Shown: positions 32,056-55,976 of the stretch, piece by piece
Layout: every line of letters begins with the position of its first letter
Position numbering within the stretch: position 1 is the stretch's first letter
Assembly: GCF_000522985.1 (NCBI RefSeq)
Contig: NZ_CP007128.1
Coordinates: 4,944,220-5,008,219, forward strand
Length of the DNA stretch: 64,000 bases
From: Gemmatirosa kalamazoonensis
GTDB lineage: Bacteria; Gemmatimonadota; Gemmatimonadetes; Gemmatimonadales; Gemmatimonadaceae
Reading direction: 5' to 3'
Notes under the pieces: generated by a model
The model's database searches: none
Seen by the model: only the letters and a program-made list of their open reading frames with translations
Told to the model about the DNA's origin: nothing
Position numbers and translations under genes: made by a program

Positions 32056-32850
32056 TCACAGGCAGGCCAGCGTCGCCGCCACGAGCCCATCGTCCGACGG
32101 CGACGCGGCGACGCTCGCCACGGTGAGCCCGAGGTCGCGGCACGCCTGCGCCGTCGCGGGCCCGATGCATACGAGCGCGGGCGCGCGCGCGCCCGCGCGG
32201 CCTAACGCTCGCGCCAGCGCCTGCGCCGCCGACGGGCTCGCGAGCAGCACCGCGTCCACCTCGCCGTCCGAGGCACGCCGCGCGACGTCGTTCAGCGCGT
32301 CGTCCACGGCGACCGTGCGATAGGCGACCACGCACTCCACGCGCGCGCCGCGGCCGCGCAGGCCCACCGGCAGCGCGTCGCGCGCGCGGTCGGCGCACGG
32401 GAACAGCACGAGCGCGCCGGCGGGGCGCGGCCACGCGGCGACGAGTCCGTCCGCGGTGTGCCGCGCCGGCACGAGGTCGCATCGCCCGAGCCGAGCGCGC
32501 GCCGCGTCCGCCGTCGCCGCGCCCACCGCGGCCACACGCGGCCGGGTGCCGAGCGACGCGCGCGGATCGCCGCCGCGCGCCGCGAGACGGTCGGCCACGG
32601 CATCGACCGCGGCGACGCTGGTGAGCGCGAGCCAGTCGTAGGTCGCGAGGCGCGCGAGCGCGTCGTCCAGCGCATCGTACGACGTCGGCGGCTCGACCGC
32701 GATCGCCGGACAGGCGATGACCGTGGCGCCTAACGCCTCGAGCGCCGAGCAGAGCGCGGCGGCGCGCTCCACGGGTCGGGTGACGGCGACCACGCGGTGC
32801 GCCAGCGGCAGCGTGTCGGTGGTGCCCGACGCGCCTGCCGCGCGCGTCAT
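32056..32850 (-). CDS. hemD: Uroporphyrinogen-III synthase
   Basis: 264 residues; cyclises hydroxymethylbilane with inversion of ring D. The family is poorly conserved; markers are RVVAVTRPVERAAALCSALEALGA, ATYDWLALTSVAAVDAV, RVAAVGAATADAARARLG and AVLLASPSAAQALARAL, plus ALVCIGPATAQACRDLG near the end. Identity is firm because of the ATGA overlap with hemC and position within the haem operon. Confidence 0.9.
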   Translation of the reverse strand: MTRAAGASGTTDTLPLAHRVVAVTRPVERAAALCSALEALGATVIACPAIAVEPPTSYDALDDALARLATYDWLALTSVAAVDAVADRLAARGGDPRASLGTRPRVAAVGAATADAARARLGRCDLVPARHTADGLVAAWPRPAGALVLFPCADRARDALPVGLRGRGARVECVVAYRTVAVDDALNDVARRASDGEVDAVLLASPSAAQALARALGRAGARAPALVCIGPATAQACRDLGLTVASVAASPSDDGLVAATLACL

Positions 32851-35937: not shown

Positions 35938-35959
35938 GCGGTACGGTACCGGAAGTGAC

Positions 35960-37273
35960 TCAGACGCCGAGCGGCGTCGCGGCGCGGGACGCGGGAAGCG
36001 ACGGCACGGCAGGCTCGTTAGGCACCGCGGGCGCGTCGGCGTCGAGCGCGAACAGGCGCCGCACCGAGGCCGCGAGCGCCGCCGCGTCCGCGTCGCCCGA
36101 GAGCGCGGCGAGCGGCTGGTGCAGCAGCTTGTTGACGAGACGCGTCGCCATCTCGCGCACGATCTCGCGCTCGCGCGGGTCGACGGCACCGAGGCGCGCG
36201 AGGGCACGCTCGACCTCGAGGTCGCGCACGCGGGCCGCCTCGTCGCGCAGTTGGGCGATGGTCGGCTGCAGCGCGCTCGTGCGCTGCCACCGCTCGAAGC
36301 GGGCGGCCCACCGCGACACCTCGGCCTCCGCGTCGGTGTGGGCGTGCGCGGTGGCCGCCCCGGCCTGCCCCCACGCGCCTAACGAGTCGACGTCGATCAC
36401 GCGCGTCGCGGAATGCTCGGCCAGCTCGGGCGCGACGTTGCGCGGCACGCCGAGGTCGACGAACGTGCGCCGCCGCGGCGCCGTGCGGGCGAGGTGCTCG
36501 CGCCGCAGCACCGGCGCGGCGGACGACGTGCACGTGAACACGACGTCCGCGTCCGCCACCACCACCTCCAGCGCCTCCCACGACGCGACCGCGGCGCCGT
36601 GGCGCGCGGCGAGCGGCAGCGCGCGGTCGAGCGTGCGGTTCACAAGCACCAGGCGCCGCGTCCGCGCGCCGGAGAGCGCGCGCAGCAGGTCCGCCGCCGT
36701 CGCCCCGGCACCCACCACGACCACCGACGCATCGCTGAGCGCCGCGACGCCGCCGAGCGCGCGCACGCCCGCTTCGGCGACCGAGTGCACCCCGGAGGTG
36801 TGCGGCAGGTGCGGCCGCGCGCGCTTGCCGGCCGCGAGGGCGAGCGACACCGCCCGCTCGATCACCCGCCCCGCGACGCCGTCGGAGCGCGCGTCGGTGA
36901 GGGCGCGCTTGATCTGCGACACGATCTGCGTCTCGCCGAGCACCATCGACTCCATCCCCGACGCGACGCGCGCGAGGTGCGCCGCGGCGGCCACCCCGGT
37001 GTACGTCACGAGGTAGTCGCGCAGCAGCTCGGCGGGCATCGCGGCGCGATCGGCGAGCAGCGCGATGAGGCGCTCGGTCGCGGCGTGGAGGTCGTGCTCG
37101 TCGGCGGCGCCGTACAGCTCCACGCGGTTGCACGTGGAGAGCACGAGCACCTCGCGCAGCACCGCGCGCTCCGCGACCTCGCGCGCCGCACCCGCCCACG
37201 AGGCGAACGCGGCGCGCTCGCGGATCCACAGCGGCGCGGTCCGATGATCGAGGCCGACGACGAGAAGGTTCAC
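35960..37273 (-). CDS. hemA: Glutamyl-tRNA reductase
   Basis: 437 residues; reduces glutamyl-tRNA to glutamate-1-semialdehyde, the committed step of the C5 pathway. Seen: VVGLDHRTAPLWIRERAAF, the catalytic Cys in LVLSTCNRVELY (about residue 49), VASGMESMVLGETQIVSQIK, the NADPH loop VVVVGAGATAADLLRAL and TFVDLGVPRNVAPEL, and the C-terminal dimerisation helix. Start GTG 37273 gives the normal N-terminus VNLLVVGLDHRT; no clear ribosome binding site. It lies 44 bases after hemY. Confidence 0.93.
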   Translation of the reverse strand: MNLLVVGLDHRTAPLWIRERAAFASWAGAAREVAERAVLREVLVLSTCNRVELYGAADEHDLHAATERLIALLADRAAMPAELLRDYLVTYTGVAAAAHLARVASGMESMVLGETQIVSQIKRALTDARSDGVAGRVIERAVSLALAAGKRARPHLPHTSGVHSVAEAGVRALGGVAALSDASVVVVGAGATAADLLRALSGARTRRLVLVNRTLDRALPLAARHGAAVASWEALEVVVADADVVFTCTSSAAPVLRREHLARTAPRRRTFVDLGVPRNVAPELAEHSATRVIDVDSLGAWGQAGAATAHAHTDAEAEVSRWAARFERWQRTSALQPTIAQLRDEAARVRDLEVERALARLGAVDPREREIVREMATRLVNKLLHQPLAALSGDADAAALAASVRRLFALDADAPAVPNEPAVPSLPASRAATPLGV

Positions 37274-37317
37274 GCGAGGAACAGTAAAGCTCGCGGCGAG
37301 ACGAATCATCCGTCGGA

Positions 37318-38763
37318 TTACGTAGAGGGCGAGGCGGCCGCGCTCGGGACGTCCCCGGAGAGCGCACGCGCCGCGGCCCGTTCCCCCGACGCGATACAGT
37401 CGGGGACGCCCACACCGCGATAGGAATTCCCGGCCAGCGCGAGCCACGGCGTCGCCGCGACCCGCGCCTCGATCCGCCGGACCCGCTCGGGGTGCCCCAT
37501 ATGGTACTGCGGCATCGCCCCCACCCAACGGGACACGAGCTCGAGCTTGGGCGCGGCCGTGACGCCGAGCGTGCGGCGCAGCTCCTCCCGCGCGATGGCG
37601 ACGAGGTCCGCGTCCGGCCGCGTCACGAGCTCCGGCCGCTGGGCCCCACCGATGAACACGCGGAACAGCCGCGTCCCCGCCGGCGCGCGGCCGGCGTGCT
37701 TGCTCGACACCCACGTGCACGCCTGCGCCGGCCGCCCCTCCGTCCGTGGAACGACGTAGCCCGTCCCGTCGAGCGGGTGTGGGACCTCGTCCGCGGCGTA
37801 CGCGAGCGACACCGTCGCCGTCGACCCGAGCTCGATCGACGCCAGCTCCGCGGCGAGCGCCGGGTCGCTGTCGGCGAGGAGCCGCCCCGCCACCGGCGCC
37901 GGCGTGGCGACGACCACCGCGTCGCACCGAAGCGTCTCACCGCTCGCGAGCTCGACGACCGCGCCGTGGTCGCCCTCCTCCGCTGGCCCGACCGCGCGCA
38001 CCGGCGTCGCGCGGCGGATCGTCGCGTTAGGCGCGCGCTCCAGCGTCCGCTCCACCGCGTCCACGAGCTCCTGCAGCCCGCCGGGGAACGTGAGGAACGG
38101 CGAGCCCGCGGCCGCCGGCGCGGTGCGTCGCCGTGCGCGCATCCCGGCGAGCAGCGAGCCGTGCTCGCGCTCCATGGCGCGGAGCTGCGGGAACGTCGCC
38201 TCCATGCTGAGCCGCGTGCCGAACCCCGAGAAGATGCCGGTGAGCAGCGGCTCGCAGACGCGCTCGTACATCTCGCGCCCCAGCCGCCGCGACATGAACG
38301 ACGCCACCGACTCGTCGGGCAGATGCGCCCTCGACTTGCGGAGCGGCTCGGTGGCGAGGCGCAGGAGCCCGATCGGCGACAGCAGCCCCGACGTCGCGAT
38401 CGGCAGGACGCGCGACGGCACGAGCCCCGAGAGCCCCTGCGGGAGCCGCTTCAGCCGGCCGCCGAGCGACACGAAGCCGCCGCGGGCCGCGGTGCCCACC
38501 AGCCGGTCGGCGATCCCCACGCGCTCGGCGAGCGATCGCGTGCCGGGCTTCGTGGCGAGCATGACGTCGGGGCCGTGCTCGATCATGTAGCCGTCGACCC
38601 GCTCGGTGCGCACGATCCCGCCGAGCCGCGCGGCGCTCTCGACGAGCGTGACGTGCGCGCCCGCGGCGGCGAGTCGTTCGGCGGCGGACAGCCCGCTGAT
38701 GCCGCCGCCGACGACGACGACGTGCCGCACCGCGGGGTCGCTCGGGCGAGGATCGGAGTGCAT
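37318..38763 (-). CDS. hemY: Coproporphyrinogen/protoporphyrinogen oxidase, HemY family
   Basis: 481 residues; oxygen-dependent FAD enzyme. Seen: FAD motif VVVVGGGISGLSAAERLAAAG, GGIVRTERVDGYMIEHGPDV, EPLLTGIFSGFGTRLSMEA, FPGGLQELVDAVE and the C-terminal FAD loop ALAGNSYRGVGVPDCIASGERAA. HemY proteins of organisms with a B. subtilis-like ferrochelatase act on coproporphyrinogen III (then called CgoX). Start ATG 38763; ATG 38778 adds five residues. First gene of the haem operon, 70 bases after the GMC oxidoreductase gene on the same strand. Confidence 0.9.
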   Translation of the reverse strand: MHSDPRPSDPAVRHVVVVGGGISGLSAAERLAAAGAHVTLVESAARLGGIVRTERVDGYMIEHGPDVMLATKPGTRSLAERVGIADRLVGTAARGGFVSLGGRLKRLPQGLSGLVPSRVLPIATSGLLSPIGLLRLATEPLRKSRAHLPDESVASFMSRRLGREMYERVCEPLLTGIFSGFGTRLSMEATFPQLRAMEREHGSLLAGMRARRRTAPAAAGSPFLTFPGGLQELVDAVERTLERAPNATIRRATPVRAVGPAEEGDHGAVVELASGETLRCDAVVVATPAPVAGRLLADSDPALAAELASIELGSTATVSLAYAADEVPHPLDGTGYVVPRTEGRPAQACTWVSSKHAGRAPAGTRLFRVFIGGAQRPELVTRPDADLVAIAREELRRTLGVTAAPKLELVSRWVGAMPQYHMGHPERVRRIEARVAATPWLALAGNSYRGVGVPDCIASGERAAARALSGDVPSAAASPST

Positions 38764-38833
38764 CGGCAGAACGTACATCCACCCCGAGCCCCCACCCATC
38801 CGGGGTCGCTCGTCCGTACGCCGGTGGAGCGCC

Positions 38834-40609
38834 CTACGTAGTGGTACGGGCGGCGGTGGGCTCGGCGGCGGGCGCCGACACGCTCTCCGCACGCGGCCGG
38901 CGGGCGCGGTCGACGATGCGGTCGGCGAACCGGTCGGCGAGCGCGGCGATCGTGAGCGACGGATTCGCTCCCACCGGTCCGGGCATGATGGAGCCGTCGG
39001 CGACGTACAGGCCATCGTGGCCATACACCTCGCCGTACGGGTCCACGACGCCCTCGTCCTTCGAGACGCCCATCGGGCAGCCGCCGAGCGGGTGCACCGT
39101 GATGACGCGGCGCAGGTACCAGAGCGGGTCGTCCTGGAAGTGCTCCGCGCCCCACGAGTCGGCCATCTGCTTCATGACCTCGCGCACGCGCGTGAAGTAC
39201 CGCCACGACGCGTCGGTGCTCCAGTCGTTCTCGAGCCACCCCTTCTCGTCGAGCCACATGCGGCCGTCCGGCACGTCGCGCCCCATGCCGAGCAGCGGGA
39301 TGGTCGTGGACGAGCGCGTGCCGGGGCCGAGCATCCCCGCGAGCTCGCCGCCGAGCTCCGTGTCGGCGCCGGCGTGGAAGACGCGCTGGAGCTGGTGCCA
39401 CGCGAAGCGCAGCCCGCGCCGCGCCGAGTCGCCCATGGCGGTCATCTGCAGCATCACGGCCATGAACGCGGGCACGCCGGCGTCCTCGACGTAGAAGCCG
39501 CGTCCCGCGGCGCCGTCGCCGTCGAGCGTGTCGCCCACGCGCAGCGCGCTCGTGATGACCGGTCCGTAGCTCGGCTCCATCGCGCGCGGCACGCGCTTGC
39601 CGTCGCGCTCCTCGTGGCAGTCGAACGCGAACGTGAGCAGGTCGCCGTTGCCGCAGAAGCGGGTGCCCAACGCGGGGCTCAGCGCGGGCAGCGCGTGGCG
39701 GTTGCGCAGCAGCAAGTACGTCGAGCCGTACGTGCCCGCGGCGAGGACCACGCGGTCCGCGGTCAGCGTGAGCCGTGGCTGATCCTCGACGCGCGGCGCC
39801 GACGTGTCGTGACGTACGTACTGGATCTCGTAGCCGCCTCGCGCGTACGGCGTGATGCGCTTCACCTCGGCGAGCGTGCGCACGTCGGCGCCCTGCTCCA
39901 CCGCGCGGCTGAGGTAGTTGTGGTCGAGCGTGTTCTTGCTGCCGTAGTTGCACCCCGCGTCGCACTCGCCGCACAGCTGACACGTCACGCGCGCCTTGCC
40001 GTGCAGGTTGTGCGAGCCGTCGTCGACGAGCTCACCGGGCGACGGCGGCGCGCCGTCGCGCGCGAACGTGATCGCGAGCCGCGGGAGCAGCCAGTCGTTC
40101 GCGCGCCCCATCGCCTTCGCGGCCTCAAACATCGCGCGCGTCTTCGGCGTGTCGCGGTACGGCGCCTCGCCGAACGGGTACGGCATCGCGTTCATCATCC
40201 GCTCCACGCGGTCGTAGTGCTCGTCGAGCGCGGCGCGGTCGACCGGCCACTTGCGGTAGCCGCCCGGGTAGTGCCCCTGCGGGTCATCGTCCACGAACCA
40301 CTTCTCGTCCTTGCGCAGCAGCACATTCGCGTAGATGAGCGATCCGCCGCCCAGCCCACTCGACACGAGGCTCTCGACGCCGCGGAACGACCAGACGTCG
40401 TACAACCCGTACAGCCCCTCGCTCGGATCCCAGAAGTTCTTCGCGAAGCCGGCCGGCGTGCGCGGGAACGACCCGGGCGGGTACGCCTTCCCGCGCTCCA
40501 GGACGCACACGCGCAGCCCCGCCTCGGCCAGGCGGTAGGCCATCACGGATCCGCCGAAGCCGGAGCCGACGATCACGACGTCGAAGTGGGTATCGGTGGA
40601 GAGCGTCAT
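38834..40609 (-). CDS. GMC-family oxidoreductase (cholesterol-oxidase-like)
   Basis: 591 residues; FAD-dependent alcohol oxidase/dehydrogenase. FAD fold at VVIVGSGFGGSVMAYRLAEAG (residues 11-31), LERGKAYPPG, SSGLGGGSLIYANVLLR, and the C-terminal HPLGGCPMGVSKDEGVVDPYGEV and VADGSIMPGPVGANPSLTIAALAD with the active-site His and Asn. It also carries a Cys-rich stretch CQLCGECDAGCNYGSKN (about 205-221), seen in the bacterial cholesterol-oxidase-like branch; whether it binds metal is unknown. The physiological substrate is unknown; sterol-like alcohols are the family precedent. Lies downstream of the patatin/decarboxylase/hydrolase genes on the same strand, separated by repeat C. Confidence 0.85.
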   Translation of the reverse strand: MTLSTDTHFDVVIVGSGFGGSVMAYRLAEAGLRVCVLERGKAYPPGSFPRTPAGFAKNFWDPSEGLYGLYDVWSFRGVESLVSSGLGGGSLIYANVLLRKDEKWFVDDDPQGHYPGGYRKWPVDRAALDEHYDRVERMMNAMPYPFGEAPYRDTPKTRAMFEAAKAMGRANDWLLPRLAITFARDGAPPSPGELVDDGSHNLHGKARVTCQLCGECDAGCNYGSKNTLDHNYLSRAVEQGADVRTLAEVKRITPYARGGYEIQYVRHDTSAPRVEDQPRLTLTADRVVLAAGTYGSTYLLLRNRHALPALSPALGTRFCGNGDLLTFAFDCHEERDGKRVPRAMEPSYGPVITSALRVGDTLDGDGAAGRGFYVEDAGVPAFMAVMLQMTAMGDSARRGLRFAWHQLQRVFHAGADTELGGELAGMLGPGTRSSTTIPLLGMGRDVPDGRMWLDEKGWLENDWSTDASWRYFTRVREVMKQMADSWGAEHFQDDPLWYLRRVITVHPLGGCPMGVSKDEGVVDPYGEVYGHDGLYVADGSIMPGPVGANPSLTIAALADRFADRIVDRARRPRAESVSAPAAEPTAARTTT

Positions 40610-40793: not shown

Positions 40794-42551
40794 TCAGGAG
40801 ATCGTCAGGCCCGGCGCCGCGGCCGCGGCGTAGCCGCCGGAGCCGGGGCGCACGATGCCCGGAATGACGATCGGCGATTCGATCAGCTCGGGCGCCGTCG
40901 CGTGCGGGTCGTCGGGCACCAGCAGCGACGGCGTGGCGTCGCGCGGCTCGGCGGGGCGCCACTTGCGCGCGACCCGGTGGAGCTTGATCGGGTAGATGCG
41001 CAGCGCGCCGTCGGGCGTGACCTGCAGCCGCAGCCAGCTCTTGTAGTCCTCGATCCGCATCGAGGAGAACGCTTCCGTGTTGTGGCGGTGGAACAGGTTG
41101 AGCGAGATCAGGAGGTAGAGCCCCATGATCACCGAGCCGACCACGTAGCCGCCGACGAGCAGGAAGCCGCCGACCGTGAGCCACTGCAGCCACTGCGGAC
41201 GGCCGGCGAGCACGTTCGCCGCGAATGCCGCGCCGATCCACCCCGAGAAGAACGCCGCCAGCAGATGCGCCAGGGCGTGCAGCGTGCCGCCGAGTCGCTT
41301 CTGCGTCGGCGAGTGGGAGTCGGTGAACGTGACGAAGCCGAACACGACGAGCACGCCCCACACCATCGCCGTGGGGCTGAGCAGCACGGCGTCGCGCAGC
41401 GCGGCGAGCGCGCGCGTCGGCTCCCTGAGCGACACGGCGCCTAACGGCACCTTCACCGACCAGCCGAGCAGCAGGTACAGCACCGCGGTCAGGATCCCGA
41501 ACTTCGGGTTGTGCCTGATGAACAGCAGGTTCCCCCACGACAGCCGCTTCGACTCCTCGACGCTCGGGAACGACGCCTTCAGCGTGTAGCCCTCCGGAAG
41601 CGTCGCGACCTCGGACACGTCGTGGTGCGTCGGCGACAGGTACGCGCCGCCGCCGCCGGCGGTGATCTTCTGCCGGCCGTCGCGCGCCTCGTGGCGCCGG
41701 TAGTGGTGCAGGTCGCCCGAGAGGAACACCTCGATGCGCCGCCCGAACACCTCGCGCTCGAGGTAGTTGAGGTTTCGCTGGGTGAGCGACGGGTCGAACT
41801 TCGCGTAGCGCGCTTCCTCGATCCAGTGCGGCTCCGCGGTGCAGAGGATCACGCGCGCGTCGTCCTCCATCTGCTTCGCGACGCCGCGGAAGTACTCGAG
41901 CTGCGGGTCGTCGATGTCGGAGTCGAGCTGCACGTCGGTGCCGACGAGCCACCAGTGGTGCGGCAGCCGCACCGCGAAGTAGCTCACCGACTGGCGTGCC
42001 TGCCACCCGCCGAGCGCGCGGTCGCGCGTGCCGCAGAACAGCCGCGTGAACGACACCAGGCTGTCGTACCAGTCGTGGTTGCCCGGCACCGCGAAGACCG
42101 ACGGCTGCGGCTTCGCGCTGTTGGGCAGCGCGGTGCGGTACGGCGCGACGAGCTTCTGCTCGTACCACTCGCGGCTGGGCGTCGGGTACACCTCGTCGCC
42201 GCCGAACACGAGCACCTGGCCGCGCCGCGTGAGGTGCGTCGTGCCGCGCGGGTCGTCGACGCTCAGCGTCGGCTGCGCCACCTGGTGGGCGATGCCGTAC
42301 GTCGCGTTCCAGCCGTCGCCGGTGTCGGAGACGTAGTCGAGCCACAGCTCGTCCCACGTCGAGTAGTCGCAGACGCCGATGTCGCGGTGCGCGATCGAGT
42401 CGAGGATGCGGCGGTCGGCGTTCTGGCCGAACAGCTCCGAGACCAGCACGCGCATGCCCGTGCGCATCAGCTGGGCGGGATCGAACCAGCCGGTCATCGT
42501 CGCCCGCTCGCTCTTCGCCGGCACGCGCGGCGCCGGCGCCGATCCGGTCAC
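40794..42551 (-). CDS. Membrane-anchored metallophosphoesterase
   Basis: 585 residues. The N-terminal ~350 are a calcineurin-like phosphatase domain: LVFGGDEVYPTPS (metal Asp), FAVPGNHDWYDSLVSF (GNHD), LCTAEPHWIEEARY and LSGDLHHYRRHEARDGRQKITAGGGG (metal His pair). The C-terminal part has four or so membrane spans (FGILTAVLYLLLGWSV, MVWGVLVVFGFVTF, AHLLAAFFSGWIGAAFAAN, GGFLLVGGYVVGSVIMGLYLLI). I choose GTG 42551, because GGGAGG is 6 bases upstream and it overlaps the patatin stop as GTGA; ATG 42497 is the alternative. It would hydrolyse a phosphoester, possibly of a lipid given the neighbours. Confidence 0.82.
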   Translation of the reverse strand: MTGSAPAPRVPAKSERATMTGWFDPAQLMRTGMRVLVSELFGQNADRRILDSIAHRDIGVCDYSTWDELWLDYVSDTGDGWNATYGIAHQVAQPTLSVDDPRGTTHLTRRGQVLVFGGDEVYPTPSREWYEQKLVAPYRTALPNSAKPQPSVFAVPGNHDWYDSLVSFTRLFCGTRDRALGGWQARQSVSYFAVRLPHHWWLVGTDVQLDSDIDDPQLEYFRGVAKQMEDDARVILCTAEPHWIEEARYAKFDPSLTQRNLNYLEREVFGRRIEVFLSGDLHHYRRHEARDGRQKITAGGGGAYLSPTHHDVSEVATLPEGYTLKASFPSVEESKRLSWGNLLFIRHNPKFGILTAVLYLLLGWSVKVPLGAVSLREPTRALAALRDAVLLSPTAMVWGVLVVFGFVTFTDSHSPTQKRLGGTLHALAHLLAAFFSGWIGAAFAANVLAGRPQWLQWLTVGGFLLVGGYVVGSVIMGLYLLISLNLFHRHNTEAFSSMRIEDYKSWLRLQVTPDGALRIYPIKLHRVARKWRPAEPRDATPSLLVPDDPHATAPELIESPIVIPGIVRPGSGGYAAAAAPGLTIS

Positions 42552-44155
42552 GCCCCGCCTCCCATCATGCGCCCGACCGCGCCGCCGTAGGAGTCGATGA
42601 GCTGACCGGCGAAGAAGCGGCTGAACGTCATCACGGCCTCCGCGCCCTCGGTCATCGACCGCGCGCCGACGGGCCGGATGGTCGACATCAGCTTCGCGAA
42701 GTCGCCCATGTCGAGGTGCAGCACGCCGGCGCCCACGACCGGCCCGTTCGCGTCGTCGCCCTCGTGGAGCCGCGTGAACAGCGTCGTCGTGTCGCTCAGC
42801 ATGTCCAGCCCGGCGTCGTTCCGCACCTCCTTCTTGCCGGCGAGGTAGTAGCGGCGGCCGTCGTGCTGGAACCCGAGCTCGTACACCATGTACTTGAGCC
42901 CCGGCGTGCCGCCCGCCGAGAACAGGCGGAACACGCCCGCGCGCGCCGGGATGCCGGTGCCGAGCGGCGGGAAGTCGATCTCGCCCACCAGCTCTCCGGT
43001 GTGCGTGGGATCGGCGACGAAGCGCTGCACGTCGTGCACGGTGACCGTCGCGTGCATGGTGAGCGTCGTCGCCGCGCGCTCGCCCGCCGCGGCCCCCGCC
43101 TTCGGGTCGTCGACGCCTAACGCGAACGGGCCGGCCATGGTCTCGCGGAACGTGATGCCGAGGGGCTCGTCCTGCATCTGGGTGGCCTCCGGTGTGAGGG
43201 GGACGCCCTCGGCGCGCATGGCGTCGAGGTAGCGTACGGCGTCGAGGTAGCCGAGGGCGACGAGCGTGCGCGCGTCGACGCGGCCGAAGAAGAAGTCGGG
43301 GTCGAGCGGGAGCGCGGTGCGCGGCTTGATCACGTGCAGCACCACCGGCCGCGTGCGGCCGTACGGGCGCTCGCCGAACGCGACGTCCTGATTGATCTCG
43401 GCGATGCGCCGCAGCTCCTCGTGCAGCACGCCGCACGCCGACATCTCGATCATGTGCACGTACTGGCGGAACGCGCCGGGATAGTACGTCGGCGTGTTGC
43501 CGATGCACCACACGAGCCAGATCTCGTCGGCGCCGCGGCGCACGGCCTCGAGCAGGTTCGCGTCCTTGATCCACACCGCGTCGGTCCACGTCGCGCCGCG
43601 CGCGCGCACGGGCGGCATGAAGATGGGCAGCGAGATCCCGGCGACGAGCAGGTCGAGGTCGATGTCGGTGTGCGGGATGGCCTCGGCCGTCTTCCGCGTG
43701 AAGTTGCAGACGTTGAACGTGCCGTCGATGCCGCGGGCCGCGCGCACGCGCCCGACGTCGATGCCGAGATGCGGGAACACCGTCCCGGTCACGCCGTCCG
43801 CGTCGCCGAGCGCCATCGCGTTCGGGAGCTTCAGGTACTCCTCGATCGAGGTCGGCGAGGCGAACGCCTTCGGGTCGAGCGTGCGCCAGCGATCGCACAT
43901 CTCCGCCGGGGGCACGCCGGAGAGCAGCATCGCGAGGTTGATGGTGCCGCCGGACGTCCCGTCGCCGTGCGCGAAGCGGAGTCCCGCCTCGGCCAGCGCG
44001 CGGATCGCCCCGGCCTGGTAGGCGACGCGCATGCCGCCGCCCGCGAGCACGAGCGCGCGGCGCGGACCGGGCGCATCGTCCGCGGCGATCGACGGCGTGT
44101 GCGGCGCGATGACGCTGAACGGCGGCGTGACGAACCAGCTCGACGTGTGGGTCAT
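42548..44155 (-). CDS. Patatin-like phospholipase with a GMC-associated C-terminal domain
   Basis: 535 residues. Residues ~30-290 are a patatin domain: oxyanion loop LAGGGMRVAYQAGAIRAL, nucleophile in GDGTSGGTINLAML, and the catalytic Asp in WIKDANLLEAV (Asp-Ala in place of Asp-Gly). From ~335 comes a second domain, DPTHTGELVGEIDFPPLG, GVFRLFSAGG, MVYELGFQHDGRRYYLAGKKEV, DTTTLFTRLHEG, GVLHLDMGDFAKLMSTI, ending FFAGQLIDSYGG. From memory this second domain is otherwise fused to cholesterol-oxidase-like GMC enzymes and their alpha/beta hydrolases, which fits the GMC gene in this cluster. ATGA overlap with the downstream-read neighbour at 44155 and GTGA overlap with the phosphoesterase. Confidence 0.83.
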   Translation of the reverse strand: MTHTSSWFVTPPFSVIAPHTPSIAADDAPGPRRALVLAGGGMRVAYQAGAIRALAEAGLRFAHGDGTSGGTINLAMLLSGVPPAEMCDRWRTLDPKAFASPTSIEEYLKLPNAMALGDADGVTGTVFPHLGIDVGRVRAARGIDGTFNVCNFTRKTAEAIPHTDIDLDLLVAGISLPIFMPPVRARGATWTDAVWIKDANLLEAVRRGADEIWLVWCIGNTPTYYPGAFRQYVHMIEMSACGVLHEELRRIAEINQDVAFGERPYGRTRPVVLHVIKPRTALPLDPDFFFGRVDARTLVALGYLDAVRYLDAMRAEGVPLTPEATQMQDEPLGITFRETMAGPFALGVDDPKAGAAAGERAATTLTMHATVTVHDVQRFVADPTHTGELVGEIDFPPLGTGIPARAGVFRLFSAGGTPGLKYMVYELGFQHDGRRYYLAGKKEVRNDAGLDMLSDTTTLFTRLHEGDDANGPVVGAGVLHLDMGDFAKLMSTIRPVGARSMTEGAEAVMTFSRFFAGQLIDSYGGAVGRMMGGGA

Positions 44156-44526
44156 CGGCGGACGGCGTTCCAGTACCAGAGCGCGACGACGCCCGAGAGC
44201 AGGTCGAACCCGGCGACGCCGAGCGCGAGCGGCGAGAACAGGCCCCGCGACACGCCTAACGCCACCGCGGCCGACGCGCCGAGCTTCTGCAGCGCGGCCC
44301 AGAACACCGGCACGGGCATCGACACCGGCGCACGCAGCGCCTGCCAGAGCAGCCCGCCGAACAGCACCATGAACATGCCGACGATGCCGAAGAAGTGCGC
44401 CGCCGAGGCGTTGCCGACGTCGCCCCCGACCACGCGGAGGACGAGCCGCGGCGCGACGAGCTGCGTGGCGCCGCTCGCCACCGTCAGCGCGGCGATCGCG
44501 AGCAGCGCGCGCCGGGCGAGCGTCAG
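44152..44526 (-). CDS. Small membrane protein, unknown
   Basis: 124 residues with about four predicted spans (LLAIAALTVASGATQLVAP, HFFGIVGMFMVLFGGLLWQAL, LGASAAVALGVSRGLFSPLALGVAGFDLLSGVVALWYW). Read from CTG 44526, which overlaps the preceding stop as CTGA and gives a natural-looking start (TLARRALLAIAAL); the first ATG in frame, 44592, would add 22 odd residues and overlap the previous gene by 70 bases. The stop overlaps the patatin start (ATGA). I do not recognise the family. Confidence 0.65.
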   Translation of the reverse strand: MTLARRALLAIAALTVASGATQLVAPRLVLRVVGGDVGNASAAHFFGIVGMFMVLFGGLLWQALRAPVSMPVPVFWAALQKLGASAAVALGVSRGLFSPLALGVAGFDLLSGVVALWYWNAVRR

Positions 44527-45080
44527 CGCGCCGGCGCCCGCCGCGCCCGGAGCGCGAAGTACGTCGCCATGGTCAGCCACTGTACCGTCCATATCCCCGT
44601 CCGGATCCGGTTGAGGAGCATCCAGCGCGCGAGCACCGTGTCCAGCCGCGCCTGCGTCGCGATCCCCGCCTCCATCTCGTGATTCGCGGGGAAGATGATG
44701 CGCGTCGTGAGCACCGTCGCGGCGACGACGGCGAGCGCCACGACGATCGGCACCCAGCGATAGCCCGTGCGCCATTCTCCCCACAGCATCACGGCCGCGC
44801 TGACGAGCATCACGATCGTCATCACGGTGAAGAAGCGCGTCGCCGCCTCCACCGGCGCGACGAACGGCAGCGTGTACGTGCTGGGCGTGAGCCGCGGCGC
44901 GATCGGGAACGAGAACAGCACGAGGGACCACCCGGTGCCGAAGTACATCGACGCGCACGCGAGCAGCAGCGTCGCGTTCACCACGTGCAGCGGGTGCTGG
45001 CGCGGCGGCGCGTCCGCCGCGGCCGGAGTCAGCGCGTGCGGGGTGTAGCTGCCGTATCCCGGTGCGGCGATTCGGGCCAT
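44523..45080 (-). CDS. DUF1772-like four-span membrane protein
   Basis: 185 residues. Four spans: VVNATLLLACASMYFGTGWSLVLF, TRFFTVMTIVMLVSAAVMLWG, WVPIVVALAVVAATVLTTRI, and IWTVQWLTMATYFALRA. The pattern of a Gly-Pro-rich second segment (SFPIAPRLTPSTYTLPFVAPVEAATRFF) and a polar FPANHEMEAG loop is like DUF1772/anthrone-oxygenase-like proteins, but the match is weak. Start ATG 45080 (preceded by GGGGGAG) overlaps the decarboxylase-like gene by 52 bases, more than is usual; a later start is possible. Confidence 0.6.
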   Translation of the reverse strand: MARIAAPGYGSYTPHALTPAAADAPPRQHPLHVVNATLLLACASMYFGTGWSLVLFSFPIAPRLTPSTYTLPFVAPVEAATRFFTVMTIVMLVSAAVMLWGEWRTGYRWVPIVVALAVVAATVLTTRIIFPANHEMEAGIATQARLDTVLARWMLLNRIRTGIWTVQWLTMATYFALRARRAPAR

Positions 45081-45922
45081 GTCTCCCCCAGGCCGAGGTT
45101 CACGACGCTCTCCATCCCCTCCGGCTGCTGGACGGGCAGACGGTCGTAGCTGAGGAACCAGCACTCGTAGTGGTCGTCGAGCGTGCCGTGCGTGCTCGGG
45201 AAGAACGCCGTGAACACCGGGTCGCTCCCGATGCCGAGCTCGCGCAGCGCGCGCATGCGCGGCTGGTCGCCCAACGTGAGCCGCGCCTTCCCCGCCCCGC
45301 CGAGCGTCATGCCGAGGTGCCCGGTGAAGTAGATGTACGACTTGTACAGCATGCCGCGGAACGCGCAGTAGTTCGCCGCCGGAAGATTGAACAGCGGCAC
45401 GCGCAGCCCCCTCGGCTGCTCCACCTCGATGCGCATCGCGAGCCGGCCGTCGAGGTCGTACTGGCTGCTGACCGCGTGCTCCTCGATGACGAAGTCGAGG
45501 CTCGCCTGGTGCTTCGGCATCCCCCAGATGCCCTTGCCGCCCTTCACCGAGACCTCGGTGCTCACCGGCAGGTCGACGACGTACTGTCCGAGGCCGTACG
45601 TCTTCTGGAAGACGAGCGGCAGCAGCGGCGGTGCCGGGCGTCGGCCGCGCGTGCACGCGATCGCGATGCTGAACTCGATGTACTTGCCGATCGACGTCAC
45701 GCGGTAGTCGACGACGGTGACGACGAGCAGCCCGTGCCCGCGCCAGCGGAACGCGTGCAGCTCGTTTCCCGGCAGCATCACCGCGGCGCGGTCGGCGTCG
45801 ATGGGGAACGCGGCCATGAGCGCCGGCGTCCGCTCCGAGTGCACCGGCAGCGTGAACGGGATGCCGTCGACGAGCGCGTGGCGTCCAGTCTGGTCGCGCA
45901 GGCGGCGTGGCAGCATGGTCAT
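45029..45922 (-). CDS. Acetoacetate-decarboxylase-family protein
   Basis: 297 residues. The family core is visible: VVTVVDYRVTSIGKYIEFSIAIAC, VSTEVSVKGGKGIWGMPKHQASLDF and FNLPAANYCAFRGMLYKSYIYF. In acetoacetate decarboxylase the Schiff base Lys is the first of a Pro-Lys-Lys; here the sequence is Pro-Lys-His, so the catalytic Lys is kept and the pKa-tuning Lys is not. Members of this group with other substrates exist, so the reaction (decarboxylase, aldolase-like or simple binding) is open. ATG 45922 overlaps the alpha/beta hydrolase stop as ATGA. Confidence 0.8.
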   Translation of the reverse strand: MTMLPRRLRDQTGRHALVDGIPFTLPVHSERTPALMAAFPIDADRAAVMLPGNELHAFRWRGHGLLVVTVVDYRVTSIGKYIEFSIAIACTRGRRPAPPLLPLVFQKTYGLGQYVVDLPVSTEVSVKGGKGIWGMPKHQASLDFVIEEHAVSSQYDLDGRLAMRIEVEQPRGLRVPLFNLPAANYCAFRGMLYKSYIYFTGHLGMTLGGAGKARLTLGDQPRMRALRELGIGSDPVFTAFFPSTHGTLDDHYECWFLSYDRLPVQQPEGMESVVNLGLGETWPESPHRDTAATPRTR

Positions 45923-47055
45923 GACGGCACCTTCGGCGGCGCGGTCGGCGATGCGATCGGGGCGGCGAGGCTCGCGTTAGGCACCTGCACGCCGCGCGGG
46001 CGCGGCCGCTCGGTGGGGCGCTCGAGCTCCGCGGCGATGAGCGGGAAGACGTCGCGCGCCGCGTGGCGGCCCATGAACACGTCGAGGTGCCCGTACGTCG
46101 GGAGCACGTGCAGCGTGTGGTAGCCGGGGCGCGCACGCTCGAGGAAGGCGTGCGTGCGGGTCTGGCTCTCGGCCAGGAAGCAGCGATTGAGCGCGCCCGC
46201 GAACAGCGCGAACCGCGCGTCGGTCTCGGGCGGGCGCGCGACGAAGCTCTCGGGAAGCTCGCGCAGCCCATCGACGGCGACGAGGTGCCCGGCGCGCACG
46301 CAGCGCGCCATCTGCCGGAAGAACGACATCGGCACGTCGGCGAACTCGCCCTTCAGCCACTCGTGCGTCGCGTCGTTCAGGTGCTCGTGGCGCCACAGCG
46401 CGGGAAAGCCGCTGCCGTAGGTGAAGCTCACCCAGCGGCACACCGTGTTGTCGCACTCGTGGTGCGTCAGCTTCACGAGCGCGGTGAGCGCCTTCGCGAC
46501 GAGCGTCGGCGCCTTGATGCCCCACCGCGGGCTGACGTACGGCGTGACGGCGCCGATGAGCGGCACGGCGACGTTCAGCTTCGCGCGCGAGAGCCCCGGC
46601 ACGACGGGATGCAGCGTGACCGCGTTCGCGACGATGGTGCGCACCTCGGGCACCAGGCCGGCGACGGCCGACATCATGAAGCTCGTCGAGCCCTGGCAGT
46701 GGATGACCGCGTTGATCTCGTCCGTGCCCGTCTCGCGCACGACGGTGCGCACGGCGGCGGGATGGTCGTGGACGGCGGCGCGGTCGAGCGTCCACTCGTT
46801 AGGCGGCAGGTCGATGCTCGCCCGCCAGTTCTCGAGCCACACGTCGTGGCCGCGGGCGACGAGATGGTCGACGAGCGTGGTCTGGACGGGGGCGCGGAAG
46901 ATGTTCGCGCGCACACCGGCGCCGTGGACGAGGAGCACCGGCGGACGGGAAGGCGGCTTCGCGCCGCGCACGTTGATGACGTTCCCCGCGCGTCCGTCGG
47001 ACGTGGCGAAGGGGACCGTGCGCTCGACGTACGGCTCGCTGCGGGCACCGCTCAC
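45919..47055 (-). CDS. Alpha/beta hydrolase with a Cys nucleophile elbow (PhaC-like)
   Basis: 378 residues. Fold markers: PPVLLVHGAGVRANIFRAP (oxyanion HG), HDVWLENWRASIDLPPNEW, the elbow INAVIHCQGSTSFMMSAVAG and, late, TYGHLDVFMGRHA with the catalytic His. In the elbow the nucleophile position reads H-C-Q-G-S, so Cys replaces the usual Ser, as in polyhydroxyalkanoate synthases (G-x-C-x-G). This suggests acyl transfer or a thioester intermediate. GGAGGT 5 bases before GTG 47055 fixes the start. First gene of the cluster, divergent from the small gene at 47339. Confidence 0.8.
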   Translation of the reverse strand: MSGARSEPYVERTVPFATSDGRAGNVINVRGAKPPSRPPVLLVHGAGVRANIFRAPVQTTLVDHLVARGHDVWLENWRASIDLPPNEWTLDRAAVHDHPAAVRTVVRETGTDEINAVIHCQGSTSFMMSAVAGLVPEVRTIVANAVTLHPVVPGLSRAKLNVAVPLIGAVTPYVSPRWGIKAPTLVAKALTALVKLTHHECDNTVCRWVSFTYGSGFPALWRHEHLNDATHEWLKGEFADVPMSFFRQMARCVRAGHLVAVDGLRELPESFVARPPETDARFALFAGALNRCFLAESQTRTHAFLERARPGYHTLHVLPTYGHLDVFMGRHAARDVFPLIAAELERPTERPRPRGVQVPNASLAAPIASPTAPPKVPS

Positions 47056-47338
47056 GGCGCACCTCCGGTCGCGATCGTGCGGGACCAGGCGAGCTCGTCC
47101 GGGACGACGACATCTCGCGTCTGCTGCGCGCTTCCGTCCCGCGGTGGCGGCGCCTAACATGGACCCGGTCCGGAGACGGCGCAAGCACGCGTGCGTGGGC
47201 ACGCATGTCGGCTCCGGCGTCATCGCTTTCGCACACTTCCGCGCCGCGTGGCCCGGCGTTCGCAAAGACCAAACGGCTTGCCGTGGGTGGTCGGGCGGAG
47301 CGGGACGGGCGCACCAGAGTGGATCGAGCAGCCGCAAC

Positions 47339-49572: not shown

Positions 49573-50864
49573 GGATGCCCTCCGAGCTTGCGCTGCACCG
49601 CGTCGGCTGCCGCGCTGTCGGCGCGCGTGGCGCGCGGGTTGACCTCGAGCGCGCGGCGGTACGATGCGAGCGCCGCCGACGAGTCGCCCGCGGCGCGCTG
49701 CACGTCGCCGAGTCGCGCGAGCGCGCGGTACGACGACGGGAACAGCGACGCGACCACGGTCTGGAGCGCGACCGCACCGGCCGGCTGCGCGCGCGACAGC
49801 CGCTCGTCGGCGAGCCCACCGAGCGCGCCCTCGGCCACGTCGTAGTCGGCGAGCCGGCCCGCGTCGCGCCACGCCGCGAGCATCGCGGCGACGTCGCTCG
49901 CGGGGCGCCCCGATTCCAACGAGTCGCGCAGCACGACGGCGAGCGACAGACGCTTCGGCGACGTGAGGATCAGCCGGTCGCCCCGTGGGCTCACGACGTA
50001 CGCCGAGAGGTGGCGCAGCTCCGGATCGGTGAACGTGGCGACCGGCGTCCACGACGTGTCGCGGCCAATCCGGCGCGCGTACAGCACGTTGCCCTTCGCC
50101 ATGAGCACCGTGCGGTGCTCCGGGATCCACGCGTGCGCAGTACGGCCGACGAGCGTGGGCGCGAGCGTCGTCACGCGATGCGTCGCGAGGTCGTAGCGGC
50201 GGATCTCGTGGTGCGCGCCGGCCGAGTCGACGTGCACGTAGCTCAGCGCGCGCTCGCCGGGGATGCGCTGCGCGGGGAGCGCCGGCACGCCGCTGTCGAC
50301 GTCGGTGATGGCGCCGGTCCGCGCGTCGAAGATGCCTAACGTGAACGTGCGCGACTTCGGCCGCGTGAGCGCGTAGTCCCCGTTCGGAAGCGGCACGTAG
50401 TAGCCGGTGGTGTCGGGCGCGCGGAGCACCGCGCGGCGCGGCGTGCCGTCGGGCGCGTAGACCCACGGACCGAACTCGCGGAACAGCGTCGCGGGCTGCC
50501 AGCGCACGGCGACGTACTCCCCGCTCGGCAGCACGGTCGGCGAGTTCTCGTTCTCCGGCGTACTCGTGACGCGGCGCTCGGCGCCGGTCGCGAGGTCGAT
50601 GCGGTAGATGTCGCTCCGCGCGGCGGTGCCGGTATCGCGCAGCGCGCTGAACACGATCGCGCGACCGTCGGGCGTGAACGCCGGCTGGCTGTTCGAGCCG
50701 TCGTCGTGGGTCAGCTTGCGCGGCGGGCCGACCACGAGCCGGTCGCCGCTCCAGCGCAGGTCGACGGTCCACAGGTTGAGCGGGTTGGGGCCCTGCGCGG
50801 CGAGCGCCGGGGGCAGCCCGAGTGCCGCTGCGGCAGCGAGCGGGAGGACGCGGAGTGATCGCAT
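49569..50864 (-). CDS. Secreted PD40/beta-propeller protein with TPR-like end
   Basis: 431 residues. Signal peptide VLPLAAAAALGLPPALAAQ, then TolB-type propeller blades (HDDGSNSQPAFTPDGRAIVFSAL, TENENSPTVLPSGEYVAV, YVVSPRGDRLILTSPKRL), then a short helical part with a TPR unit (SLFPSSYRALARLGDVQRAAG, SSAALASYRRALEVNPRA). A periplasmic protein of unknown ligand. The stop overlaps the dehydratase start (ATGA), an odd pairing of a periplasmic binding-type protein with a PLP enzyme. Confidence 0.8.
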   Translation of the reverse strand: MRSLRVLPLAAAAALGLPPALAAQGPNPLNLWTVDLRWSGDRLVVGPPRKLTHDDGSNSQPAFTPDGRAIVFSALRDTGTAARSDIYRIDLATGAERRVTSTPENENSPTVLPSGEYVAVRWQPATLFREFGPWVYAPDGTPRRAVLRAPDTTGYYVPLPNGDYALTRPKSRTFTLGIFDARTGAITDVDSGVPALPAQRIPGERALSYVHVDSAGAHHEIRRYDLATHRVTTLAPTLVGRTAHAWIPEHRTVLMAKGNVLYARRIGRDTSWTPVATFTDPELRHLSAYVVSPRGDRLILTSPKRLSLAVVLRDSLESGRPASDVAAMLAAWRDAGRLADYDVAEGALGGLADERLSRAQPAGAVALQTVVASLFPSSYRALARLGDVQRAAGDSSAALASYRRALEVNPRATRADSAAADAVQRKLGGHP

Positions 50865-50907
50865 GTGGTCACGCTACCCGCCGTGCAGATGCGAGGGAAT
50901 GGGCGGG

Positions 50908-50979
50908 TTCGCGTCGGATTGGTACCACGCCGTGCACGCGCGTGTAGAACCTTGGGCGAAGGGGGGGGAGCCCCCCCTG
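50908..50979 (+). repeat. Dispersed element F, copy 2
   Basis: Matches 23038-23107 (TTCGCGTCGGATTGGTACC ... GTAGAACCTTGGGCGAAGG) and ends in G8-AG-C7, a strong small hairpin. It lies in the 223 bases between the divergent PD40 and patatin genes, on the patatin strand, 109 bases before its start. Confidence 0.65.
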
Positions 50980-51087
50980 GTAACTGCGATCGCGCCACCG
51001 GCTCCCTGCCCGGCTTGCCCGTCGCGACGCGGCACGTTATGCGTCCCGCGCAGGGACGCGACGCATACCACAATCCGTGTTATCGAC

Positions 51088-52251
51088 GTGACGAGCGGCA
51101 ACGGAGTCGGGCTCGCGCTCGCGGGCGGCGTGGTCGAGGGCGGGTTCTACGAGGTGGGCGTGCTGTGCGCGCTCGCGGAGGCCGTCGATGGGCTCGATCT
51201 CACGCGGCTCGACGTCTACGTCGGCGTGAGCGCGGGCGCGCTCGTCGCGTCGATGCTGGCGAACGGCGTCGACGCGCGCACGCTCGCCGCGGCGATCGTC
51301 GGCCGCTCCGGTGACCCCACGCTCGACGTGCACCCGGACGCGTTTCTCACGCCGGCGTGGGGCGAGCTCGCCGACCGGCTGCTCCGACTCCCCGGCATCG
51401 CGGCGCGCGCGGCCCGGCGGGTGCTCGCCGCGCCGCGCGACGCGTTAGGCTGGGGGCTCGTCGCGGAGCTCGGCACCGCGGTGCCGACGGCGCTGTTCGA
51501 CGGACGCGGCATCGAGCGCTTCGTCGCCGCGGCCCTCGCGCACGACGGGCGCACGAACCGCTTCGGCGATCTCCGGACGCGGCTGCGCATCGCCGCGGTG
51601 CGGCTCGATACGGCGGAGCTGGCGACGTTCGGCGCACCGGGGCTCGACCACGTGCCGATCTCGCGCGCCGTGCAGGCGAGCACCGCGCTGCCGGGCCTCT
51701 TCTGCCCGGTGGAGATCGACGGCGAGCACTACATCGACGGCGTGGCGCGCCGCACGCTGAACGCGAGCCTCGGTCTCGAGGAGGGGGCGACGCTCCTCCT
51801 CTGCGTGAACCCGATCGTGCCGGTGCGCCTCACGTCGTCGCGCGACGGGCGCCGCTCGCTCGCCGACTACGGGCTGCCGCTCGTCATGTCGCAGACGTTC
51901 CGCACGGTGATCCACTCGCGCATGGACACGGCGTTCCGCGGCTACGCGCGCTCGCACCCGGACGCGGACCTCGTGCTCATCGAGCCGGAGATGGAGGAGA
52001 ACGCGCTGTTCTTCTCGAACATCTTCAGCTTCGCGAACCGCCGCGGCGTCTGCGAGCTGGCCTACGCGAGCACGCGGCGACACCTGCTGCGCGAGTTCGA
52101 CCGGCTCGCGCCGGTGTTCGCGCGCCACGATCTCACGCTGCGGCGCGACGTGCTGGAGGACCCGAGGCGCGCGCTGTTCTCCGCCGAGGGGACCGTCGCT
52201 CCGCTGGGGCTCGGGCCGTCGGGCCTCCTCGGCTCGGCGGCTGCCGTGTGA
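51088..52251 (+). CDS. Patatin-like phospholipase
   Basis: 387 residues. Oxyanion stretch LALAGGVVEGGFYEVGVL (one Gly of GGG replaced by Val), nucleophile in YVGVSAGALVASML (GxSxG), and the catalytic Asp in HYIDGVARRTL (Asp-Gly). Distinct from the patatin at 42548, without the extra domain, and of the bacterial group with a helical C-terminal part (FRGYARSHPDADLVLIEPEMEENALFF). Likely a phospholipase or acyl hydrolase. Start GTG 51088; ribosome binding site not clear. Followed by hairpin B2. Confidence 0.83.
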   Translation: MTSGNGVGLALAGGVVEGGFYEVGVLCALAEAVDGLDLTRLDVYVGVSAGALVASMLANGVDARTLAAAIVGRSGDPTLDVHPDAFLTPAWGELADRLLRLPGIAARAARRVLAAPRDALGWGLVAELGTAVPTALFDGRGIERFVAAALAHDGRTNRFGDLRTRLRIAAVRLDTAELATFGAPGLDHVPISRAVQASTALPGLFCPVEIDGEHYIDGVARRTLNASLGLEEGATLLLCVNPIVPVRLTSSRDGRRSLADYGLPLVMSQTFRTVIHSRMDTAFRGYARSHPDADLVLIEPEMEENALFFSNIFSFANRRGVCELAYASTRRHLLREFDRLAPVFARHDLTLRRDVLEDPRRALFSAEGTVAPLGLGPSGLLGSAAAV

Positions 52252-54165: not shown

Positions 54166-55976
54166 GCGTACATCGAGGCGATGAGCGCGCGGTACCGCTC
54201 GGCGATCACGCGCCGCTTGATCTTCAGCGTCGGCGTGAGCGCGCCGTCCTCGATCGTCCACGGCTCGCCGAGCAGACGGAACGCGCGCACCTGCTCCCAC
54301 TTCGGCAGCGTCGGGTTGACGGCGTCGATCTCCGCCTGCACGAGCGCGCAGGCCGCCGGCGACTTCTCGATCGGACCGTCGAGCGCGAGCCCCTGCGCCG
54401 CGAGGCGCCGCTCGAGCTCCTTCATGTTGGCCACGATGAGGGCGGTGCAGAACTGCACGCCGTTGCCGATCACGACCGCCTGCTCGACGAGCGGGCTCGC
54501 GGCGAGCTTCATCTCGATCGGCTGCGGGGCGACGTACTTGCCGGTGGAGAGCTTCAGCAGGTCCTTCTTCCGATCGGTGATGAACAGGAACCCGTCCGCG
54601 TCGCGCGTCACGATATCGCCGGTGTGCAGCCACCCGTCGGCGTCGAGCACCTCCGCGGTCTGCTCGGGGTTGTTGTAGTAGCCGCGCATCACGTTGGGCC
54701 CGCGCACGAGCAGCTCGCCGTCGTCCGCGATGCGCACCTCGACGTTCGCGATCGGCTTGCCGATGGAGCCCGCGCGCAGCCGCTTCGGGTCGTAGATGGT
54801 GATCACCGGCGACGTCTCGGTCTGGCCGTACCCCTGGCCGCAGAAGATGCCGATCGCGTTGAAGAAGTTCATCACCGACGCCGAGAGCGCCGCCCCGCCG
54901 GCGCTGATCGCCTTCAGTCGTCCGCCGAAGCGCTCGCGCAGCTTGCGGTACACGAGCCGGTCGGCGATCGCGAGCCGCACGCGCTCGGCCGCCGTCGGCG
55001 GCCGGTCCACCGAGTAGCGATCGGCGACGTCCACGGCCCACGCGAAGATGCGCTTCTGCATCCCCTGCATCTCGCCGGCGCGCGCGTGCACGTTCGCGTG
55101 CACCTTCTCCAGCACGCGCGGCACGGTGGTGAAGTGCACCGGCTTCACCGTGCCGAGATCGCCGGCGATCTCCTCGGCGACCTCGATGAACCAGATCGGA
55201 TAGCCGATGTACTGGTACGTGTACGACAGCGTGCGCTCGAACACGTGCGACAGCGGCAGGTACGACAGCACGCGCCCGCCCTCACGCTCCCCCTCGAGGT
55301 CCCACGGCAGCCGCTCGAGCATCGCGAGCACGTTCGAGGTGATGTTCGCGTGCGTGAGCATCACGCCCTTCGGCGTGCCGGTCGTCCCGGACGTGTAGAT
55401 CAGCGTCGCGAGATCGTCGGGGTGCACCGTCGCCCGCGCGTCGTCCACCCCGTCGCCGCGCGCGAGCAGGTCGCTCCACGCGAGCATGCGCGCGTCGAGC
55501 GAGCCGCGGATGCCGACGAGATGGCGCACCGACGCGACGCCCTTCACGTGCTCCGCCACGCCGCGCCAGATCCGCGGCGCCGACGTCACGTACACGCTCG
55601 CCCCCGAGTCGGCGAGGATGAACGCCACCTGGTCGCCGGGCTGCGTGGGATAGATCGGCACGCTCACGGCGCCGAGCGACAGGATCGCGTGGTCGAGCGC
55701 GAGCCACTCGGTGCTCGGCTCCGCGTGCACCGCGACGCGGTCGCCGGGCGCGACGCCGAGCGCCGCGAGGCCGCGCGCGGCGCGCTGCGCCATCGTGACG
55801 AAGTCGCGCACCGACGTCTCGATCCACCGGCCCTCGCGCTTCGTGGCCGAGTGCGTGCCCGACGTGTTGCGCGGCAATCCGGCGTCGACGAGCTCCGGGA
55901 TCGTCGGGTACGGGCCGCGCGGATCGAGGGCGATGCGCGGGCGCGTCGCTTCAGCGGTTCCGACCGTAGCGCTCAT
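54162..55976 (-). CDS. Long-chain acyl-CoA synthetase (AMP-forming)
   Basis: 604 residues; activates a fatty acid with ATP to acyl-AMP, then CoA. Seen: P-loop LIYTSGTTGTPKGVMLTHAN, FCGQGYGQTETSPVITIYD, NPEQTAEVLDADGWLHTGDI, DRKKDLLKLSTGKYVAPQPIE. Length and motif set fit the FadD/ACSL long-chain group. ATG 55976 overlaps the HMG-CoA reductase end by 26 bases, and the stop overlaps the ubiB-like start as GTGA. Confidence 0.9.
   Translation of the reverse strand: MSATVGTAEATRPRIALDPRGPYPTIPELVDAGLPRNTSGTHSATKREGRWIETSVRDFVTMAQRAARGLAALGVAPGDRVAVHAEPSTEWLALDHAILSLGAVSVPIYPTQPGDQVAFILADSGASVYVTSAPRIWRGVAEHVKGVASVRHLVGIRGSLDARMLAWSDLLARGDGVDDARATVHPDDLATLIYTSGTTGTPKGVMLTHANITSNVLAMLERLPWDLEGEREGGRVLSYLPLSHVFERTLSYTYQYIGYPIWFIEVAEEIAGDLGTVKPVHFTTVPRVLEKVHANVHARAGEMQGMQKRIFAWAVDVADRYSVDRPPTAAERVRLAIADRLVYRKLRERFGGRLKAISAGGAALSASVMNFFNAIGIFCGQGYGQTETSPVITIYDPKRLRAGSIGKPIANVEVRIADDGELLVRGPNVMRGYYNNPEQTAEVLDADGWLHTGDIVTRDADGFLFITDRKKDLLKLSTGKYVAPQPIEMKLAASPLVEQAVVIGNGVQFCTALIVANMKELERRLAAQGLALDGPIEKSPAACALVQAEIDAVNPTLPKWEQVRAFRLLGEPWTIEDGALTPTLKIKRRVIAERYRALIASMYA

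Follow-up and report, generated by a model that had tools for sequence, protein, structure and literature searches.

A lipase-fold bacterial hydrolase with a predicted Cys-His-Asn triad, encoded in a conserved cluster with a cholesterol-oxidase-like flavoenzyme

What chemistry should be expected of an alpha/beta hydrolase that carries cysteine at its nucleophile elbow, and with which partners might it act? The gene that raises this question lies in a window of 64,000 nucleotides from Gemmatirosa kalamazoonensis, the whole stretch of DNA analysed here, and encodes a protein that we call ABH (Table 1). An initial annotation had read its elbow as H-C-Q-G-S, with Cys replacing the usual Ser, and this reading is borne out by the open reading frame, the predicted structure and the alignment. 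Residues 118-123 are I-H-C-Q-G-S, and in the AlphaFold2 model, which was built from 78 aligned sequences (pLDDT 90.2, pTM 0.88), strand 5 spans residues 114-119 and a helix begins at residue 120, which identifies Cys120 as the elbow residue. HMMER alignments place Cys120 opposite the Ser of GHSQGT in gastric and lysosomal lipases and opposite the Cys of PhaC. It is conserved in all 81 aligned rows (the window protein and 80 genome loci from many phyla, three of the rows partial), and its presence at the elbow is therefore not a matter of chance. The same annotation had asked whether the Ser of GST might occupy the elbow instead; this candidate is rejected on the predicted structure and the alignments, with Ser123 in the first helix turn of the model. 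The position, invariance and modelled structure of Cys120 give good support to its predicted role as nucleophile and to the thioester acyl-enzyme that this role would entail, and acyltransfer by ABH instead of hydrolysis is possible.

ABH is present as a single copy in the window genome. Its score against Pfam Abhydrolase_1 (27.6 bits) is slightly above the cut-off of 25.8, and the secondary structure of the model, the fold matches and this Pfam hit all conform to the layout of the alpha/beta hydrolase superfamily, taken here as a nucleophile after strand 5, a third residue after strand 7 and a His after strand 8. The stretch H44-G-A-G-V48 is presumably the oxyanion-hole region, a role that we assign from the fold. 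Two cap cysteines, Cys201 and Cys206, are invariant in the close family and retained by most, not all, of the divergent members, with a Ser pair at these positions in locus L085.

Table 1. Features of the ABH gene, its product and the adjoining gene cluster (positions in the window)
Feature	Position	Strand	Remarks
ABH, Cys-type alpha/beta hydrolase	45919..47055	-	378 aa; GTG start at 47055
Ribosome-binding site GGAGGTG	47060..47066	-	Directly 5' of the ABH GTG start; read from sequence
H44-G-A-G-V48, putative oxyanion-hole region	46912..46926	-	After strand 3; H44, G45, G47 and V48 invariant in 78 rows
Cys120, nucleophile at elbow (well-supported prediction)	46696..46698	-	Codon TGC; strand 5 then helix; 81/81 rows
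Cys201-x4-Cys206, cap	46438..46455	-	81/81 each in close family
Asn290, triad-acid position	46186..46188	-	Codon AAT; after strand 7; 80/80 rows with a letter
His323, putative catalytic His	46087..46089	-	Codon CAC; after strand 8, in YGHLD; 80/80
ADC-family protein (acetoacetate-decarboxylase-like)	45029..45922	-	PF06314, 53.4 bits; ATG overlaps the ABH stop codon
ANT, small anthrone-oxygenase-like protein	44523..44960	-	PF08592, 20.9 bits, below cut-off 27.3
Patatin-like protein with C-terminal domain	42548..44155	-	PF01734, 67.5 bits
CTD, beta-barrel domain and long C-terminal helix	42551..43150	-	Model pLDDT 88
MPE, metallophosphoesterase-like	40794..42551	-	Start tentative; PF00149, 16.9 bits, below cut-off 21.5
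GMC flavoenzyme, nearest class I cholesterol oxidases	38834..40609	-	PF05199, 81 bits

The third residue of the triad in the alpha/beta hydrolase fold usually follows strand 7. In the ABH model this strand covers residues 281-287 and is followed by the family motif G287-x-x-N290, in a column that holds Asp in Ser-type relatives (G-x-x-D: GGEDF, GSRDL, GGGDW) and in PhaC-like Cys relatives (KKDH). The stretch around His323 aligns with NHLD of gastric lipase, and the one row without letters at Asn290 and His323 ends before both positions. In the model Cys120, Asn290 and His323 occupy the sites expected of a triad in this fold, at the elbow, after strand 7 and after strand 8. Although the acid of alpha/beta hydrolases can migrate to strand 6, as described in passages of PMC11878206, such a shift is ruled out for ABH, where the end of strand 6 (residues 144-149, N-A-V-T-L-H) contains no Asp or Glu. 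Given the Asn at the post-strand-7 site and this acid-free strand end, the triad reads Cys-His-Asn, and a Cys120-His323-Asn290 triad in the usual chain order of nucleophile, third residue and His is strongly supported as a sequence-based assignment. Both the Asn of the triad and the conserved gene cluster described below were overlooked in the initial annotation, which had been made from sequence only.

The combination of Cys, Asn and His extends well beyond the window. The genome contig search recovered 80 ABH loci, mostly 54-68% identical to the window protein, in hosts including Methylobacter, Nostoc, Corallococcus, Rubrobacteraceae, Arthrobacter, Shewanella, Acidobacteria and Bradyrhizobium. 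Family-profile searches took in 200 genomes from the phylum of the window, 31 genomes behind loci, 274 genomes from the class of genome G207 and 289 from that of G226, and 296 and 195 genomes from the phyla of G220 and G209, respectively; the samples overlap, with certain genomes sampled more than once. Triad counts were drawn from 224 loci, including 20 stretches picked out of longer lists. Among close sequences (>400 bits), 106 of the 107 distinct ones are C-N-H and the other is truncated; the 35 distinct lower-scoring sequences (80-400 bits) comprise 31 that read C-N-H, including a close member that is truncated, along with two G-N-H and two fragments. All six of the named plasmid proteins examined, from 15 matching records, are likewise C-N-H. 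A tree of 48 rows, calculated with two trait columns left out and with its rooting not settled, contains a branch, supported at 100/99, that separates the 31 Asn rows from the other 17. The latter are S-D-H (9), S-E-H (1) and C-D-H (7), and the PhaC-like C-D-H proteins form a clade separate from the Asn clade. Locus L156, which appears as an Asn row in the HMM alignment, was rejected as such: MAFFT puts the D of GSNDFFG in the column, and Asp is preferred because this alignment retains the spacing, G-x-x-D, that the sister sequences of L156 show. Close copies (E 1e-170 or better) occur in only three of the 200 genomes sampled from the window's phylum, the window's own included, and gammaproteobacteria hold copies 63% identical to that of the window; this pattern would fit a spread of ABH by horizontal gene transfer.

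ABH heads a minus-strand run of genes for the ADC-like protein, the anthrone-oxygenase-like protein, the patatin-like protein with its C-terminal domain, the metallophosphoesterase-like protein and the GMC flavoenzyme. Neighbourhoods were counted in the 58 of 80 loci with at least 5 kb of flank on each side, where ABH is accompanied by CTD in 57, GMC in 52, ADC in 51, patatin in 46, ANT in 23 and MPE in 18; a single flanked locus has none of the cluster families. Several of the partners are also fused. Locus L026 carries GMC, CTD and ABH in a single open frame, CTD is fused to ABH in L004, L011 and L019, and divergent relatives have these domains in open frames of 1147-1185 aa and include single proteins of about 1120-1185 aa, those from plasmids being annotated merely as 'alpha/beta fold hydrolase' or 'GMC oxidoreductase'. 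The fusions and the linkage make it likely that the hydrolase, the barrel domain and the flavoenzyme act on one substrate. The searched literature, which left out most subscription papers, contained no account of this cluster.

The GMC enzyme has cholesterol oxidase 1coy as its best PDB match (E 5e-26), and its best family is NCBIfam CholsOxChoxAB, at 214.7 bits below the cut-off of 850. His506 and Asn549 are conserved in 66/66 rows. Within residues 210-220, a C-x2-C-x2-C-x3-C stretch has C210, C216 and C220 in 66/66 rows and C213 in 54/66, and may possibly be a metal or Fe-S site. The GMC enzymes that accompany many of the ABH relatives are only 31-38% identical to that of the window, and the oxidised substrate may therefore differ among relatives. 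The ADC-like protein keeps the motif G134-M-P-K137-H138 in at least 93% of 67 rows; its P-K-H stretch lies where ADC has its Schiff-base lysine. A sequence search with this protein gave no PDB matches. The CTD barrel matches no Pfam family, nor any PDB entry at an E-value of 0.001 or lower, and its VIA-align matches, with Z up to 11.3, are unrelated barrels.

By fold, ABH is closest to the acid lipases. The top VIA-align match was 6v7n, human lysosomal acid lipase, with 325 residues aligned at a Z of 32.5 and an rmsd of 3.2; gastric lipases (PDB entries 1hlg, 1k8q) came next, with Z of 32.1 and 31.6, and gastric lipase was the top hit of the PDB sequence search, with E 1.3e-4 for the single protein and 6.5e-10 for the profile. 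The likeness in fold covers nearly the whole chain, and the two share a Q-G that follows the nucleophile and an H-L-D that includes the catalytic His. The acid lipase triad is however Ser-His-Asp, with Asp as its acid, whereas that of ABH reads Cys-His-Asn, and identity in the fold alignment is 17-20%; ABH has the fold and the H-L-D of these enzymes, and neither their Ser nucleophile nor their Asp. Its likeness in fold to a cholesteryl-ester hydrolase is not a demonstration of substrate.

Other known systems share parts of this arrangement. Papain has the papain-like fold, with a triad ordered differently along the chain, and FatA/FatB have the hot-dog fold. Papain-type proteases, in the sections available of PMC6642262, and the FatA/FatB acyl-ACP thioesterases, in those of PMC3441505, have the same Cys, His and Asn composition as ABH, on other folds; ABH is an alpha/beta hydrolase throughout and does not belong to the papain fold. 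Natural alpha/beta hydrolases with a Cys nucleophile include dienelactone hydrolase, PhaC and PhaZ (described in part of PMC11878206) and P91 (in part of PMC9853848), but these are Cys-His-Asp enzymes. ABH has no dienelactone-hydrolase Pfam match and lacks the Cys-His-Asp triad, and no dienelactone hydrolase was prominent among the VIA-align matches listed, a result that does not argue against such a relationship. The artificial cysteine-lipase CALB QW4 combines a lipase-type fold with Cys, as ABH does, but is man-made and Cys-His-Asp according to PMC6642262.

We consider it probable that ABH is an acid-lipase-like hydrolase with a Cys120-His323-Asn290 triad, working as a thiol esterase or acyltransferase, probably on a bulky lipid ester and together with the GMC enzyme and the barrel. 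Cys120 and His323 would form a thiolate-imidazolium ion pair that is oriented by Asn290 instead of being charged by Asp. The Cys120 thiolate would add to the carbonyl of an ester or thioester, assisted by the oxyanion stretch H44-G-A-G, to give an acyl-S-enzyme at the elbow, from which the acyl group could then be handed to water or an alcohol. ABH might thereby free or cap an alcohol that GMC oxidises, in a presumed order comparable to that of cholesterol esterase and cholesterol oxidase. Both the likeness to acid lipases in fold and the association with a cholesterol-oxidase-like enzyme point to a bulky lipid ester as the probable substrate. To our knowledge most bacteria make no sterols, a point against this reading. 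According to part of PMC9825947, Ser triads nearly always contain Asp or Glu, whereas a Cys triad may use Asn or dispense with a third residue; by the argument made there, a neutral Asn could stand in place of Asp because the thiolate-imidazolium pair does the work.

ABH could instead be a PHA-synthase-like acyltransferase or polymerase, in which Cys would bear an acyl chain, growing or donated, that comes from a thioester of CoA or ACP; we regard this as unlikely, although several observations point towards it. PhaC (9knj, 5xav) has a Cys nucleophile on the same fold and a weak sequence likeness to ABH over residues 57-128, and it is among the better folds, its Z of 25.8 being level with those of a monoglyceride lipase and an esterase (25.4, 25.3). 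One divergent plasmid relative adjoins a gene annotated as thioester-reductase, and acyl-ACP thioesterases also use Cys-His-Asn, as reported for FatA/FatB in the accessible text of PMC3441505. PhaC, however, has Asp as its triad acid, a G-x-C-x-G box and a lower fold score than the acid lipases. ABH has Asn and no such box, the first Gly being replaced across the family (position 118 is Ile in 72/81 rows and Val in 9/81). Scores against the NCBIfam PhaC models are 23.4 and 20.5 bits, far below the cut-offs of 622.65 and 365.3, and together with Asn290, the missing box and the separate clade they rule out membership of the PhaC family. The cluster partners, a GMC enzyme, a patatin and an ADC-like protein, also argue against this reading. 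The comparison with PHA synthases drawn in the initial annotation accordingly holds for the Cys residue alone.

It is improbable that ABH is a lipid-binding subunit with little or no catalytic activity that serves as a scaffold for the flavoenzyme, with Cys in a redox-active or structural role, as might be suggested by Cys201 and Cys206, conserved alongside Cys120, and by paralogues with Gly at the nucleophile. Two such paralogues are full-length, L127 (7703-8683) and L128 (7779-8759), with HGVGA or HGVGS at the elbow and with Asn and His kept, so that retention of Asn does not always go with a functional Cys. Fragments of the Gly type were also seen at L130 (10292-10663 and 12057-12398), with Asn and His retained where present. 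These paralogues look like catalytically dead or repurposed relatives. Gly is found, however, in just 2 of the 35 distinct lower-scoring sequences, and the close family conserves the whole triad, together with the oxyanion stretch, over long distances. That ABH is an ordinary Cys-Asp-His enzyme, with a carboxylate elsewhere replacing Asn290, is hard to credit: Asp325, two residues past His323, is present in 78/80 rows and migration of the acid to strand 6 has precedent in the fold (PMC11878206, in part), but several Ser-type relatives have Asp at position 325 as well as after strand 7, which makes Asp325 unlike a substitute acid, and the end of strand 6 is acid-free.

With Cys120-His323-Asn290 as the preferred triad, ABH would have few counterparts. 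No natural Cys-His-Asn alpha/beta hydrolase was found in the literature searched, most subscription papers lying outside it, or in the parts of reviews that it included. A plain Ser-to-Cys swap in lipases usually costs most of the activity. Cen et al. (2019) ask, in the section available of PMC6642262, whether nature has cysteine-lipases; the ABH family offers a candidate answer, and one in which evolution may have replaced a charged Asp by a neutral Asn together with the change of nucleophile. The wider proposal, on which we are evenly divided, is that the family represents natural and widespread thiol lipases or acyltransferases with a lipase fold and a papain-type Cys-His-Asn, partnered and in some cases fused with a cholesterol-oxidase-like flavoenzyme and a barrel. 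If true, this thiol-lipase family would mark out a bacterial lipid pathway, so far unstudied, with a scattered occurrence in many phyla. The cluster itself is conserved, widespread and little studied, and centred on the cholesterol-oxidase-like enzyme.

Other genes were noted in and around these loci. The window cluster is followed by haem-biosynthesis genes on the minus strand (32847-39024), for protoporphyrinogen oxidase, glutamyl-tRNA reductase, hemE and hemC, and a second patatin-like protein is encoded nearby on the opposite strand (50608-52251, plus). The window also encodes HMG-CoA reductase, a mevalonate-pathway enzyme (55951-57495, minus), and an RCC1-repeat protein with bacterial Ig-like domains (18361-20619, minus). 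On plasmid pB of Rhodococcus pyridinivorans, a divergent C-N-H hydrolase (L226:3596-6960) lies directly after a gene annotated as encoding a thioester-reductase-domain protein, with no GMC neighbour listed.
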